Source of the DNA: Caulifigura coniformis
GTDB taxonomy: Bacteria; Planctomycetota; Planctomycetia; Planctomycetales; Planctomycetaceae
Length of the DNA: 64,000 nucleotides
Assembly: GCF_007745175.1 (NCBI RefSeq)
Contig: NZ_CP036271.1
Span: 2,190,154 to 2,254,153, forward strand
Reading direction: 5' to 3'
The translations under genes were made by a program, and so were the position numbers. How positions within the stretch are numbered: position 1 is the first letter of the stretch; each line of letters starts with the position of its first letter. A model generated the notes under the pieces. The model saw only the letters and a list, made by a program, of their open reading frames with translations, made no database searches and had not been told where the DNA came from. Positions 8,821-16,150 of this stretch are shown piece after piece.

Positions 8821-9273
8821 TCAGGCGACGTTCGGAGGAGGAGTCGGCGGAGTATCACGCCGGCCGGAGAGTTCAGCCGAGTGCATCAAACACGAATGTT
8901 CGAGCACACACGACGACCATTCAAACAGCCGCACCGGAAGCGCGGCGGCCATCATCGAAGGACAACAGGGGCAACCACAGCCCCCCATTCCTCCACAGCA
9001 CGACTTGCCCGAGCCATTGGCAGGCACCGGAACGTTCGTGGAATGCTGACAGCAGGCAGAGCGGACCCCTTCATGAGGACCTGCATCTGGCGAACACGAC
9101 TCGTGGTCCGTCCCCTGTGCGTGGCAGCAGGACTTTGCCGATGCAACCACCGGAGACTGAGACGGCGCCGATGCCATTCCCACGGCGAGCCCCGGCGGTG
9201 CGCTCAGGGTCAATGCGGCCGCAAACGCCAGCAGCGTTCGCGACGATCGGCCCAGACACAACACCAGATTCAT
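8821..9273 (-). CDS. Secreted Cys/His-rich protein, possible metal-binding
   Basis: A 150-aa product with an N-terminal hydrophobic segment (about residues 12-32). Paired-Cys motifs follow: KSCCHAQGTDHESC, RSACCQHS, KSCCGGMGGCGCPCC. There is a second hydrophobic stretch (MMAAALPVRLFEW) and a Pro-rich tail TPPTPPPNVA. The general plan (signal, CC/H clusters, short hydrophobic stretch, TPPP tail) resembles the protein at 55781-56326 in this window. It also faintly recalls DUF2946-type copper-associated proteins, but no identity is claimed. It lies upstream of the 90-aa Cys-rich gene on the same strand; both probably handle metal or thiol stress in the periplasm (inference). Confidence 0.6.
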   Translation of the reverse strand: MNLVLCLGRSSRTLLAFAAALTLSAPPGLAVGMASAPSQSPVVASAKSCCHAQGTDHESCSPDAGPHEGVRSACCQHSTNVPVPANGSGKSCCGGMGGCGCPCCPSMMAAALPVRLFEWSSCVLEHSCLMHSAELSGRRDTPPTPPPNVA

Positions 9274-9399: not shown

Positions 9400-12300
9400 T
9401 CACACCGAATCCCCGCCGGAAGCCCGCCGGCCCGTTCCCGCATGGCTTTCGAGCAGTTGCGACAACTCCAGTACGTACCGCGTGTTCCGCTCGAGATCCC
9501 GTTCAAACTTCGCCAGGTCTTCGCCGTACTCCAGTCGGCGCGCCAGGAACTCGAACTCCTCTGTGTCGCGCGCCGGGACGGCCAGGTCACGTGCATCTCC
9601 GCGGACCATCCGCAGCCCGTCGATCACCCGTCGCCAGAACCGGTAGGCGTCCCGCAGCCGCACCCGCTGCCCCGAGGCCAGAATTCCCGCATTCTGAAGC
9701 GCCTTCATCGCCGTGCGCGTGTTCGTGGCGCGCAGCGACTCATCGCGATGGCCATAGGTGATCTGCAGCCCCTGCACCAGGTACTCGCAGTCGACCAGTC
9801 CCCCCGGCGACAGCTTGGCGTTGAACGTTCCTGCCCGCACGAGCTGGCGATTCTGCTTCTCGCGCATCCCGCGCATCGCCGCAACGTCGAACGGCCGACC
9901 TGTGTAGATCAGCTCGTCCCGCACTTCAACCACCTGCCGGCCGAACGCACCATCCCCCGACACCGGCCGGAGCTTCACCAGCGCCTGCCGCTCATAGGGC
10001 CATGCCGGGCCGTCGCTGGAGAAATATTTCCGGAACGTCTCCAGCGAAACCGCCAGACTCCCCGCCTTCCCGTACGGACGCAATCGCAGGTCGACCTCGA
10101 AGATCCCCTTGCGCTTGGCGTGAATGTGCGTCCGGAACAGGTCGACAATCTTCTGGTAATACTCGGCGTTGGTGATGACGTTCGGCCCCGACGTCCTTCC
10201 GTCCGCCTCGTATACGAACATCAACTCGATGTCGGATGCGTATCCCAGTTCGTATCCGCCGAACTTTCCCAGCGCGCACAGCGCCAGCCGGCTTGGCAGC
10301 GGCTTCCCGTCGGGCTGCCACTCGGGCGAACCATGAGCCGGCTGCAGCTCCTGCTCGCACAGGCGCAGATTCGCCGTCACGACGGCCTCGGCCACCTCCG
10401 TCAGCTCGCGCGAAAACTCGACGAACTTGTCCTGCAGGTTCAGGATGTGCCGCATGTCGACGCGCAGCATCTCGCGGTCTTTGAACGCATTCAGAGCGGC
10501 GATCTTCCCTGCCAGATCGCTCGCCGCATCCATCTCCGACTGCACTTCGCGGTTCAGTTCGGCAAGCGGCCGTGCCTGTCGAAGCCCCTCGACGTTCGCC
10601 ACCACCGGGAACAGGTTCTCATGCTGCAGGCGCAGGAAATCGTGCCACAGGAACTCACTGACCCCCAGCAGCTGCGCCAGCGCCGCGAGAACTTCCGTCT
10701 GCTGCAGCGAAGCGAGTTGCTCGAGCCAGTTCGGCTGCTGGAACAGATGCTCGAGGAACTGCCGGAACTGCACCAGCGCCGATTCCGGATTCGGTGACTG
10801 GGGCAACAGGTGTGTGAAATGCTTCGTCAGCACGACCGCGGCCCGCAGCTCACTGAGCCTCAGCGGGTCGGTGATCTTCTTGCCGTCCTGTCCGACAACA
10901 GCCAGCGTGTCGAGCGCCTGCTCCCGGTTCGATTGGATGCGCACGCGATGAATCGACACCCCGCTCACCGACAGCGAGTTGGTCAGCTCGTACAGGAAGC
11001 CGATCGTGTCCTCTGCCTCGATGTGCATCACGGTGCACTCCGGATCGGCTTCGTTGTCGATATCGATTTCCACCGGCAGCAACGTCGTCGATGAACGCGG
11101 CCCGATCACCCGGTCCCGCAGCGCGCGAGCCACGCGCTTGGCCAGCTTCCCCTGCGCCTCGTCCAGCTTTCCCTGAAGCGCCAGCCGCAGCAGCTCATTG
11201 AGGTCGGCCGAATACTTCGTCCAGGCGTCGTCGGGAACAGGCGATTTGACGGGACGGACCGTAAACACGTTGACGTACTTCCGCCGTCGTTCGTCGGCAC
11301 GCCGTTCACCCCCGTCACGCTTCGGCTCGAACACCTCGGCCCCGGTGAACACCCATCCCGATTCGATGTTCCAGCCCCACACAAACAGCAGCCCGCACAT
11401 CAGCGACAGGTTGCCCAGCACGTCATAGCCGACGACTGTGAGTTCCCACGCGCCATCCCGCGATGGCCGGGCCTCGAGGTGCATCATCTTCTGGTCGTCG
11501 AGATGGTCGAGCATGTCAAGATGCCGCTCGGCCTGCTCGTCGTTGAAGATTTCCCGGTAACCGGCCGCCGCCAGCCCGAAATGCGTGTCGACTGTTCGTT
11601 GCAGAAGCACGATCGGCGTCGACGCCACTTCGCCACGCAGGATGTATTTCTCGTAAATCGCGCGAATCGCGCGGCAGTGCTGCGTGTAGTGCGACAGGAA
11701 AACGTCCGCATTCGGATAGTCGAGACGGCGGGCCAGGTAGGCCAGCTCGCGGGGCGATTCCGGAAGTGAATGCTCCTGCTTGTTGTGCATCAGCTGGAGT
11801 GAATGCTCGATCGTTCGCAGGAACACGTAGCCGCTGCTCAGCTGCCGGAATTCATCCGCTCGCAGCAGGTCGAACTCCGCGAGCCGCACCAGGGCGTCCA
11901 GCGTGTTGAAGCTCCGGACCTCTGGCATCGCATGGCCGTTCGCGAGCTGCAGGTACTGCACCACGAACTCGACGTCGCGGATGCTCCCCTGCCCCCCTTT
12001 CACCTCGCCCCACGCCTTGCCCCGTTTCGCAAGGTGCTGCTCGATCTTCTGTTTCATGTCGGCCACGTTGGCCCGCGCCGCTTCCGCATCGATCTCGAAG
12101 ATGAATGGCTCGAGACGTTTCAGCGTCGCGTTTCCGACCGCGTGATTCCCCGCGATGACACGCGCCTTGAGCAACGCCTGCTTTTCCCACAACCGGCCGT
12201 GCTTCTTCAGGTAGTCGACATATGCATCGCTCGTCGACACCAGCGGGCCCGAACTCCCCCACGGCCGCAGGCGCATGTCGACGCGGTACAGAAACCCGGC

Positions 12301-13092
12301 CGAAGTCGGCTCGCTGATCGCGTTGATCAGCTTCTGGCCCAGTCCCCAGTAACGATCGGCCCCTCCCTGGCAGACAAACACCAGGTCGATGTCCGAACTG
12401 TAGTTCAGCTCCTCGCCTCCCAGCTTGCCGAACGCCAGCACGGAAAAGTCGTCAGCCTGCAGCTTCAGCTCCGCGGCCGCGATGTCGAGCGACGACTGCA
12501 CGAGGCTGTCGGCCAGCAGCGCCAGCTGCAGCGTGGCGCTTTTCAGATCCATCAGGCCGAACGTGTCACACGCCGCCAGTCGCAGCAGTTCCCACTGCTG
12601 GTACCGGCGCAGCTCATCGAGGCGGTCCCGGAACGTGCTCGTCGGTGCAATCGCTTCCTGTTCCTCATCGACGAACTGGGTGCGGCTCTTGAAGTCGGCC
12701 AGGCGCTTGTGCTGCGTCAGCCGTTCCAGGTAGTGCGGATTCCTCAGCAGAATCTCTGTGAGGAACTGGCTGCCGACAAACAACCGGAACAGGATCTCCA
12801 CCGCCCGAGGATTCTCCGCCAGGTAGCGGAACAGACCTTCGCTGTCCTGGGCGGCCTGAACGAATCGCTCAAGGTTGATGAGCGACGTATCCGGCACAGC
12901 GCCGTCGGCCAGCGCGTGGACGATCCCCGGCAATGCCCGTGCAAAGAGTTCCCGTTCCGCATCCGTTCGGGCAAGACCCCGGAAGCGGGCCCGCGCTTCG
13001 GGAATGCTCAGGAATCCGGCCGACCGAAGCGTCTCCTCCGCTTCCGCCTCATGAGCCGGGTCGGCAGACAAAAGCAACGGCGCAACATCCAT
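9400..13092 (-). CDS. glnE: Glutamine-synthetase adenylyltransferase/adenylyl-removing enzyme with central tandem ACT domains
   Basis: GlnE adenylylates and de-adenylylates glutamine synthetase. Both nucleotidyltransferase halves are present. The N-terminal one has GKLGGEELNYSSDIDLVF (about residues 222-239) and RPWGSSGPLV. The C-terminal one has ALGKFGGYELGYASDIELMF (about 939-958) and DLRLRPYGKAGSLAVS. The product is about 1230 aa, while the E. coli enzyme is about 950. The extra part lies between the halves and reads as two ACT domains, about 545-620 (TVVGYDVLGNLSLMCGLL) and about 684-751 (TVMHIEAEDTIGFLYELT). This is the arrangement seen at the C-terminus of GlnD. The start at ATG 13092 is preferred; an in-frame GTG at 13134 would add 14 residues. 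No glnA or glnB is in the window. Confidence 0.93.
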   Translation of the reverse strand: MDVAPLLLSADPAHEAEAEETLRSAGFLSIPEARARFRGLARTDAERELFARALPGIVHALADGAVPDTSLINLERFVQAAQDSEGLFRYLAENPRAVEILFRLFVGSQFLTEILLRNPHYLERLTQHKRLADFKSRTQFVDEEQEAIAPTSTFRDRLDELRRYQQWELLRLAACDTFGLMDLKSATLQLALLADSLVQSSLDIAAAELKLQADDFSVLAFGKLGGEELNYSSDIDLVFVCQGGADRYWGLGQKLINAISEPTSAGFLYRVDMRLRPWGSSGPLVSTSDAYVDYLKKHGRLWEKQALLKARVIAGNHAVGNATLKRLEPFIFEIDAEAARANVADMKQKIEQHLAKRGKAWGEVKGGQGSIRDVEFVVQYLQLANGHAMPEVRSFNTLDALVRLAEFDLLRADEFRQLSSGYVFLRTIEHSLQLMHNKQEHSLPESPRELAYLARRLDYPNADVFLSHYTQHCRAIRAIYEKYILRGEVASTPIVLLQRTVDTHFGLAAAGYREIFNDEQAERHLDMLDHLDDQKMMHLEARPSRDGAWELTVVGYDVLGNLSLMCGLLFVWGWNIESGWVFTGAEVFEPKRDGGERRADERRRKYVNVFTVRPVKSPVPDDAWTKYSADLNELLRLALQGKLDEAQGKLAKRVARALRDRVIGPRSSTTLLPVEIDIDNEADPECTVMHIEAEDTIGFLYELTNSLSVSGVSIHRVRIQSNREQALDTLAVVGQDGKKITDPLRLSELRAAVVLTKHFTHLLPQSPNPESALVQFRQFLEHLFQQPNWLEQLASLQQTEVLAALAQLLGVSEFLWHDFLRLQHENLFPVVANVEGLRQARPLAELNREVQSEMDAASDLAGKIAALNAFKDREMLRVDMRHILNLQDKFVEFSRELTEVAEAVVTANLRLCEQELQPAHGSPEWQPDGKPLPSRLALCALGKFGGYELGYASDIELMFVYEADGRTSGPNVITNAEYYQKIVDLFRTHIHAKRKGIFEVDLRLRPYGKAGSLAVSLETFRKYFSSDGPAWPYERQALVKLRPVSGDGAFGRQVVEVRDELIYTGRPFDVAAMRGMREKQNRQLVRAGTFNAKLSPGGLVDCEYLVQGLQITYGHRDESLRATNTRTAMKALQNAGILASGQRVRLRDAYRFWRRVIDGLRMVRGDARDLAVPARDTEEFEFLARRLEYGEDLAKFERDLERNTRYVLELSQLLESHAGTGRRASGGDSV

Positions 13093-14291: not shown

Positions 14292-15680
14292 ATGTCCAAA
14301 GCCTGGTCTGGCCGCTTCTCTCAGCCCACTGACAAGCTCGTCGAAGCTTTCACCGAATCGATCAGCTTCGATGCCCGTCTGGCCGAGGTCGATATCCGCG
14401 GCTCGAAAGCCCACGCGCAGATGCTCTCGGAAACCGGGCTGATCTCCGCCGACGAATCAAAATCCATCGCCGCCGCGCTCGACTCGATCGGCGAGATGAT
14501 CCGCAAGGGGGAGATGAAGTTCTCCTCCGAGCTCGAAGACATCCACCTCCACATCGAAAGCGAACTGATCCGCCGCCTCGGCGACGTCGGCCGCAAGCTC
14601 CACACCGGCCGCAGCCGCAACGACCAGGTCTCCACCGACCTCAAGCTTTACACCCGCGACGCCATCGACCACATCGACCAGTTGCTGGAAGCGGTGCAGA
14701 AAGCCTTCGTTGGCCGCGGCGATGCCGATCTCGACATCATCGTCCCTGGCTACACGCACCTGCAGCGCGCCCAGCCCGTCGCGGCGCCGCACTACTGGCT
14801 GGCTTACGTCGAGAAGTTCCAGCGTGACCGCGAGCGCCTCGCCGATTGCCGCAAACGTGTGAATCTCTCACCGCTCGGCGCTGCCGCCCTCGCTGGCTCG
14901 TCACTCCCGATCAACCGTCATCGCACGGCGGAACTGCTGGGCTTCAGCGCCCCGGCCGCCAACAGCCTCGATGTCTCCAGCGATCGCGATTACCTCGTCG
15001 AGTTCACCAGCACTCTCGCCCTCGTCGCGGCCCACCTCAGCACCTGGGCCGAAGAATGGATTCTCTGGAACACGACCGAGTTCGGCTTCCTGCGGCTGCC
15101 AGATGCCTTCACGACCGGTTCGTCGATCATGCCGCAGAAGAAAAACCCGGACGTCCTGGAGCTGATTCGCGGGAAGTCGTCGCGCGTGATCGGCGCGGCC
15201 CAGACGCTGCTCGTCCTGATCAAAGGCCTTCCCATGGCCTATAACCGCGACCTGCAGGACGACAAGCGGGCGATGTTCGATGCCTATGACACAATCGTCG
15301 CCTGTCTCGAAGTGGCTCCCCAGATTATCGCCGGCGCGGAACTCCGCCGCGACGTCATCGCCTCGCGGATCGATGACGGATTCCTCGACGCGACTGCGCT
15401 GATGGAATACCTCATCAAGCGTGGCGTTCCCATGCGGACCGGACACGAAGTCGTCGGCAAGCTCGTCGCCGAATGCGAGCAACGGAAATGCCGCCTGAAA
15501 GACCTGACACTCGCCGAGATTCGGTCCCTGGTCCCCGCGACCGCCGCGCCGCTCATCGATGAATCGGTTTCAAGCGTGCTGGGATCGGCCAACGCCGCCG
15601 CCGCTCTCGTCAGCTACGGCTCCGGCAGCCGGGAACGCGTCAAAGAGCAGCTCGCCGAATGGAAGAAACGTCTGGCGTAA
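14292..15680 (+). CDS. argH: Argininosuccinate lyase
   Basis: The 462-aa product cleaves argininosuccinate to arginine and fumarate, the last step of arginine biosynthesis. It is of normal length and shows the fumarase/ASL superfamily signature [17 protein letters not shown] (about residues 279-295). [17 protein letters not shown] is the family substrate-binding block, and [11 protein letters not shown] contains the catalytic His region. The C-terminal ASL_C2 region [21 protein letters not shown] is also present. The ATG at 14292 has no clear Shine-Dalgarno site. No other arg gene lies next to it; the downstream gene (chorismate mutase) is convergent. Confidence 0.97.
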
Positions 15681-15778: not shown

Positions 15779-16150
15779 CTATTGAGCGCTGCACACGTCC
15801 GGACGCAGCTTCTTCGCTTCGCCCAGGTAGACGTGGACCACTTCCTTCTGGCTGCGCTCGGTGTTGATGTGCAGCAGGATGCGAATGATCTGCGGCATCC
15901 CATGCGGAACGGCGATCTCCGACGCACACAGCAGCGGCACCTGGCTCATTCCCAGATGACGGGCCGCCTCGGCCGGAAACGCGGCCGTCAGGTCGGGCGT
16001 CGTCGTGAAGATCGCCGAAATGACGTCGTCGAACACCGTGATGCCGTTCGCGCGCAGCAGCTCCGTGAGCAGTTCGCGCGTGGCGGCGACGATCTGCTCG
16101 GACGTGTTTTCAGTGACGCTGATCGCGCCGCGAAGGCCTCGGACGGACAT
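15779..16150 (-). CDS. aroH: Monofunctional chorismate mutase, AroH (Bacillus) class
   Basis: A 123-aa enzyme converting chorismate to prephenate for Phe/Tyr synthesis. It is the small trimeric AroH fold rather than the helical AroQ fold. The start [20 protein letters not shown] is characteristic, with the active-site Arg in [47 protein letters not shown] and [13 protein letters not shown] follow in the right order and are family-typical. Length is normal for the class. It is convergent with argH (98 bp between stops); a small GC hairpin lies in that gap. Confidence 0.95.

Follow-up and report, generated by a model that had tools for sequence, protein, structure and literature searches.

The stretch of DNA considered here (the window, 64,000 nucleotides of contig NZ_CP036271.1 from Caulifigura coniformis) carries on its minus strand a gene for GlnE (glutamine synthetase adenylyltransferase/adenylyl-removing enzyme), which textbook nitrogen control places in the bicyclic GlnD-PII-GlnE cascade. 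The open reading frame (ORF) begins with an ATG at 13092, has no internal stops and encodes 1230 residues, compared with 946 (2841 nucleotides) for glnE of E. coli K-12; this excess of 284 residues agrees with the figure of about 280 given in the original prediction, which was made from the letters of the DNA alone. Judged by sequence comparison and structure modelling, the central region of the protein is a tandem-ACT module of the GlnD type, occupying the place of the regulatory domain of E. coli GlnE. The features of the gene are listed below, with the evidence for each in brackets.

9400–13092 (-), stop included: GlnE with central ACT pair, 1230 residues (ORF and Pfam)
12121–12792 (-): N-half nucleotidyltransferase domain, PF03710, residues 101–324; the deadenylylase half, if as in E. 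coli (Pfam)
12385–12429 (-): N-half catalytic motif GKLGGEELNYSSDID, of DxD form (motif pattern)
11647–12060 (-): N-half helical domain, PF08335, residues 345–482 (Pfam)
10798–11595 (-): insert resembling the GlnD C-terminus, residues 500–765, comprising helical lead-in, ACT1 and ACT2 (profiles, alignment and model)
11176–11484 (-): ACT1, residues 537–639, broken by a variable hydrophilic loop (model secondary structure and alignment)
11413–11424 (-): loop DVLG between strand 1 and helix 1 of ACT1 (alignment)
10798–11070 (-): ACT2, residues 675–765 (Pfam, model and alignment)
10999–11010 (-): loop DTIG between strand 1 and helix 1 of ACT2 (alignment)
9934–10683 (-): C-half nucleotidyltransferase domain, PF03710; the adenylyltransferase half, if as in E. 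coli (Pfam)
10225–10269 (-): C-half catalytic motif GKFGGYELGYASDIE, of the DxE form typical of ACT-bearing GlnEs (motif pattern)

The two halves were those of an E. coli-type GlnE. Pfam identified two stretches of PF03710 (4.5e-100 in all) and two of PF08335, each catalytic domain being followed by the GlnD_UR_UTase helical domain, and nucleotidyltransferase motifs were present in both halves. The acidic catalytic residues took the form DxD in the N-half and DxE in the C-half, and the third catalytic Asp lay within VDMRLRPWG and VDLRLRPYG of the two halves. The best score against the NCBIfam GlnE equivalog models was 478.9 (cut-off 487), and the protein fell under the cut-offs of all such models. 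It departed from the E. coli type in its DxE motif and in its centre, where a GlnD-like module fills the gap otherwise spanned by a short linker. In canonical GlnEs (n = 13; 12 from Planctomycetota plus E. coli) the halves were 89–153 residues apart; the distance was about 285 in the window protein and 223–314 in 36 of 37 ACT-bearing two-half sequences (two genomes counted twice). The 37th, at 81 residues, was the permuted enzyme of genome G290, in which the measured gap follows the C-half and precedes the N-half. On these lengths the idea that the insert is an ordinary GlnE linker was rejected, and the insert profile had no match in E. coli GlnE. Chance or assembly error was likewise rejected, the same arrangement being present in 17/17 sampled genomes of the window's family (f1).

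When the insert was isolated (residues 485–764), its best matches were to GlnD. The NCBIfam models PRK05092, PRK03381 and TIGR01693 gave 7.3e-15, 3.2e-12 and 2.8e-11, respectively, and the PRK05092 match placed residues 15–270 of the 280-residue insert onto model positions 690–920 of 940, so that similarity extended over the lead-in helices and both ACT domains, i.e., along the whole of the GlnD C-terminus. In Pfam, the ACR9-like model PF24931 (ACT_ACR9) was matched at 1.5e-6 (28.6 bits, cut-off 27), and was the best Pfam match of ACT2; ACT_4 was matched at 0.0045, under that model's cut-off. The sequence motifs of both ACT domains were present, TVVGYDVLGNLSLMCGLL at residues 552–569 and TVMHIEAEDTIGFLYELT at residues 687–704. 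The two ACT modules that had been proposed, and their kinship to those of GlnD, were thus both recovered; residues 530–760, given as their span, do hold the ACT region, and the homologous block is slightly wider, at about 500–765. The window protein is nevertheless not a GlnD (PII uridylyltransferase/uridylyl-removing enzyme): it scored 64.2 bits to TIGR01693 (cut-off 519.4) and 91.2 to PRK05092 (cut-off 959), Pfam found no HD (uridylyl-removing) domain in it and, unlike in GlnD, the module is in mid-protein. GlnD-like ACT repeats also occur in plant ACR11/ACR9-type proteins, which are not fused to GlnE halves; PMC3173338 reports co-expression of ACR11 with a glutamine synthetase (GS), and proposes that the glutamine site of GlnD lies within its ACT domains.

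An AlphaFold2 model of the insert, built on 58 aligned inserts (the window plus 57 of 80 related loci), consisted of two helices followed by two ACT-like alpha/beta units, with a mean predicted local distance difference test score (pLDDT) of 88.2 and a predicted template modelling score (pTM) of 0.86. The ACT pair was retained in a near-full-length model (1199 residues; pLDDT 85, pTM 0.56). Foldseek comparison of the insert model with the PDB was headed by the ACT-bearing large (180 kDa) glutamate dehydrogenases of Mycobacterium; lower matches included SerB2, threonine dehydratase and GL3 ACT-like domains, mixed with unrelated entries (viral RNA polymerase, carboxysome shell proteins). ACT1 and its lead-in aligned with the glutamate dehydrogenase over model residues 16–175 (Z = 8.2, root mean square deviation (rmsd) 3.1, 127 aligned), although this is a different enzyme, identity was low (11–18%) and a Z of about 8 may come from a shared arrangement. 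VIA-align 2 placed aspartate kinase at the top (Z = 11.9, rmsd 3.6, 149 aligned), with threonine deaminase second (Z = 9.7, rmsd 3.0, 138 aligned). There was no GlnD structure among the structure matches listed, and PDB sequences searched with an insert profile yielded nothing meaningful (8 entries, E of 0.14 or worse), indicating that no close solved relative exists by sequence.

The loops between strand 1 and helix 1 are putative sites of amino-acid binding. The DVLG loop of ACT1 is where ACT domains carry the Gly that contacts the ligand, and the loop residues were mostly conserved across 44 ACT-bearing sequences (two genomes, G087 and G205, entered twice): Asp and Gly were kept in 41 and 39 for ACT1, and in 44 and 37 for ACT2. 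An apparent absence of the ACT1 glycine from the GlnD of Planctomycetaceae was dropped, since the alignment had shifted by one residue and the Gly is mostly present.

The C-halves also set these enzymes apart. Among the 44 sequences the C-half motif was DxE in 40 and DxD in two, and the pattern was unmatched in two; among the 13 canonical GlnEs it was DxD in seven, unmatched in six and never DxE. In a tree of 36 ACT-bearing C-halves, 29 ACT-bearing N-halves and 13 canonical halves of each kind (8 redundant proteins of 57 omitted), the 36 C-halves formed one clade with a Shimodaira-Hasegawa-like approximate likelihood ratio test (SH-aLRT) value of 100; the ACT N-half clade did not include the N-halves of G290 and G004, both of which had long branches. 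A second tree combined 36 inserts with 15 GlnD C-termini (51 sequences; the same 8 proteins and one duplicate GlnD omitted). Here, a single branch parted the two sets with SH-aLRT 93, below the starred level of support, and several branches were long, the longest belonging to L174, a broken GlnD. Both trees came from 'quick' searches without bootstrap. Because this one branch separates inserts from GlnD C-termini, the topology points, with moderate support, to an old event and not to recent copying from the host's own GlnD.

The survey covered Planctomycetota, Chloroflexota and, through the best 80 of 146 loci found with peptide patterns from the insert, further phyla. PF03710 occurred in 116/294 Planctomycetota genomes, and all 24 strong matches to the insert profile (at least 114 bits) fell within those 116; they comprised all 17 genomes of family f1 and seven others. 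The remaining Planctomycetota matches reached at most 62 bits, mostly in GlnD-sized ORFs. In Chloroflexota, PF03710 was found in 9/251 genomes, once weakly (30 bits), and the other eight carried the insert at 157 bits or more. The insert was in the same frame as a GlnE half at 80/80 of the best loci, some of which were cut by contig ends or frame breaks; 79 of them belonged to Chloroflexota (39), Planctomycetota (36), Acidobacteriota (2), Spirochaetota (1) and Abditibacteriota (1). The module was therefore rejected as an oddity of a single species.

Domain order varied. Writing AT for the adenylyltransferase half and AR for the deadenylylating (adenylyl-removing) half, the window enzyme is AR-ACT-ACT-AT, and the 1281-residue ORF of G290 was permuted to ACT-ACT-AT-AR. 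Five genomes (G077, G037, G111, G317 and G457), each with one PF03710 match, had ACT-ACT-AT with no recognisable N-half in the ORF; G441 resembled these, its C-side being cut by a contig end. In every order seen, the ACT pair stood directly upstream of the C-half. By eye, the C-terminal tails of the G111 and G317 enzymes resembled the start of the G290 AR half, and the tails at L161 (914–4186) and L195 (3484–6129) looked like a truncated AR start, as if a permuted enzyme had lost its last domain.

The genome of C. coniformis itself retains the rest of the cascade. A full-length GlnD (588.6 bits) lies directly after two tandem PII genes (locus L007, C1:1149.2–1155 kb), upstream of which is the end of an ORF resembling amt by eye, and another two PII genes, likewise in tandem and encoding nearly identical proteins, lie at 6124.4–6128 kb. 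All four PII proteins read YRGAEYTVDF and thus possess the T-loop tyrosine. Replacement of GlnD by the ACT-bearing GlnE in this organism was therefore rejected. Of the two roles first envisaged for ACT sensing, bypassing PII does not hold in this genome; given GlnD and four PII genes, such sensing would complement PII.

Bypassing PII suits certain other lineages better. A search with TIGR01693 in 26 genomes with ACT-bearing GlnE (the window's own, 11 and 14) detected GlnD in seven (own, G295, G298 below cut-off, G297 partial, G004, G200 and G280) and found no match outside GlnE in 19. Each of the remaining 16 genomes of family f1 had a GlnD-sized second match to the insert profile, four of which were checked as GlnD. 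Among the 19 GlnD-less genomes, PII had no match in seven (G290, G037, G299, G303, G317, G392, G528), matched weakly in eight (best 22–40 bits; G294, G301, G302, G304, G440, G441, G457, G520) and matched strongly in four (G077, G111, G296, G300), leaving 15/19 without a strong PII. The PII proteins of G077, G111 and G296 had no Tyr51 among the copies read, a third G296 copy being outside this set. The better GlnD-less cases were Anaerolinea thermolimosa IMO-1 (G294), a named isolate, and G077 and G111, which are 99% and 98% complete. Four Chloroflexota (G385, G449, G465, G537) presented GlnD and no GlnE match.

The window genome encodes two class-I GS with the motifs LDRDIYEM and LDKDIYDL; (de)adenylylation of GS is the predicted activity of the window protein. 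The adenylylation-type tyrosine motif D-x-[DN]-[IL]-Y (DKDLYELPP-like) was found in 15/15 GlnD-less genomes examined of the 19 (partial in G441), counting at least one copy per genome, some other copies in G441, G317 and G299 being unread or in other contexts. By comparison, it occurred in one (G321) of five GlnE-less Chloroflexota, for which all GS matches were fetched and the motif was extracted from all except the second G316 and fourth G321 copies; other copies read there included EENLYHF, EENVYDF, INLYHL and EEDLFHI. A GS gene was close to GlnE (limit 4 kb; greatest distance 3.5 kb) in 9/15 genomes: G294, G520, G077, G304, G303, G528, G299, G440 and G290. Two further GS-like sequences were observed. 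In the window genome, a third GS-like ORF (L062 1453–2472 (-), C1 near 4.553 Mb; 339 residues, 54 bits to PF00120) is about 0.4 kb from a class-I glnA and resembles eukaryotic-type GSII by eye; in G077, a weak GS match adjoins glnA.

Near glnE in the window, a 150-residue ORF just downstream (8821–9273 (-)) seems by eye to have a signal peptide and clusters rich in Cys, and had no match in a Pfam search. A small ORF matching chorismate mutase type I (15779–16150 (-); PF07736, 5.9e-45) sits downstream of an ORF resembling argH by eye (14292–15680).

The window protein is probably, on balance, a GlnE equipped with a GlnD-type ACT sensor that sets GS adenylylation by glutamine, acting here on top of GlnD and PII; direct sensing of this kind is plausible. 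At high glutamine, the ligand would bind the ACT pair and tip the enzyme towards adenylylation, switching GS off; the C-half, which adjoins the ACT pair directly, would relay the signal. At low glutamine, the N-half would strip AMP from GS. In C. coniformis this input would be layered on an intact GlnD/PII cascade, and in lineages with neither GlnD nor a modifiable PII the ACT pair would be the only glutamine input. We infer the glutamine ligand, the sign of the effect, the responding half and the loss of PII control. For Chloroflexota and some Planctomycetota, it is an evenly balanced proposition that the GlnD-PII-GlnE cascade has collapsed from two tiers into a single ACT-bearing GlnE, in places reduced to ACT-ACT-AT, that would itself read glutamine and modify an often-neighbouring GS without PII.

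Several observations weigh against these readings. The module was absent from 92/116 GlnE-bearing Planctomycetota genomes, and GlnD was kept in 23/42 genomes with an ACT-bearing GlnE, including the window's own. The other 19/42 gave no match, which is no rate: many GlnD-less genomes are metagenome-assembled and the sample was hand-chosen, so absences may be gaps. One GlnD-less genome, G300, had a strong PII with Tyr51, and GS was not near GlnE in 6/15 (G301, G392, G317, G441, G457, G111). The insert diverges faster than the GlnE halves (mean identity 0.43 versus 0.60–0.61), the ACT1 loop is altered in the relatives L042 (strongly) and L039, and with a pTM of 0.56 the packing of domains in the full-length model is unsure. 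At most one ACT of the pair may be a sensor, by analogy with GlnD, to which a review ascribes a response to glutamine through a single site (PMC4285133). Glutamine, finally, is a putative ligand: which amino acid is bound differs between ACT domains, and some take none.

That variety allows a different account, in which the ACT module is genuine and senses another amino acid (glutamate, arginine or branched-chain) or mainly dimerises, with the glutamine sensor lying elsewhere, as it does in E. coli GlnE. The leading fold matches were indeed ACT-type regulatory domains from large glutamate dehydrogenase, aspartate kinase and threonine deaminase, all enzymes of other kinds, and the E. coli AT/AR enzyme, as modelled in PMC5448240, has its own glutamine site, while E. 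coli GlnE shows no match to the insert. However, the insert is closest in sequence to the GlnD C-terminus, with which it also shares the helices preceding ACT1, and GlnE acts on the enzyme that makes glutamine; this account is rather doubtful. It is distinctly less probable that in Planctomycetaceae the module serves the PII cascade as an added element for docking or coupling, with PII still the controlling input. GlnD-sized second matches in 17/17 genomes of family f1 (five checked as GlnD), and four PII genes with Tyr51 in the window genome, would suit such a role, but the module was kept in 7/19 GlnD-less genomes without any PII match. Least probable is that an old fusion left behind a linker that has degenerated and senses nothing: the insert's rapid evolution and the strongly changed loop of L042 might be so explained, but fold and loop residues are conserved across several phyla, and the module recurs in permuted and one-half enzymes.

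A glutamine-sensing, GlnD-type ACT pair is the favoured reading of the insert. Direct control of GlnE by glutamine is not new in itself, a separate allosteric glutamine site having been described for E. coli AT/AR in PMC5448240; what is new is a dedicated GlnD-type sensor module within GlnE. The literature searched contained no description of ACT domains in GlnE; with subscription journals mostly outside the search, this is weak evidence of absence. Neither GlnD nor a modifiable PII was found in some lineages that retain ACT-bearing GlnE, which suggests that the cascade can shrink to one enzyme, and such enzymes offer a simple in-vitro system for asking which signals ACT domains detect and how adenylylation is set by them. 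In Planctomycetota and Chloroflexota, annotation of a GlnE does not by itself imply control by PII.

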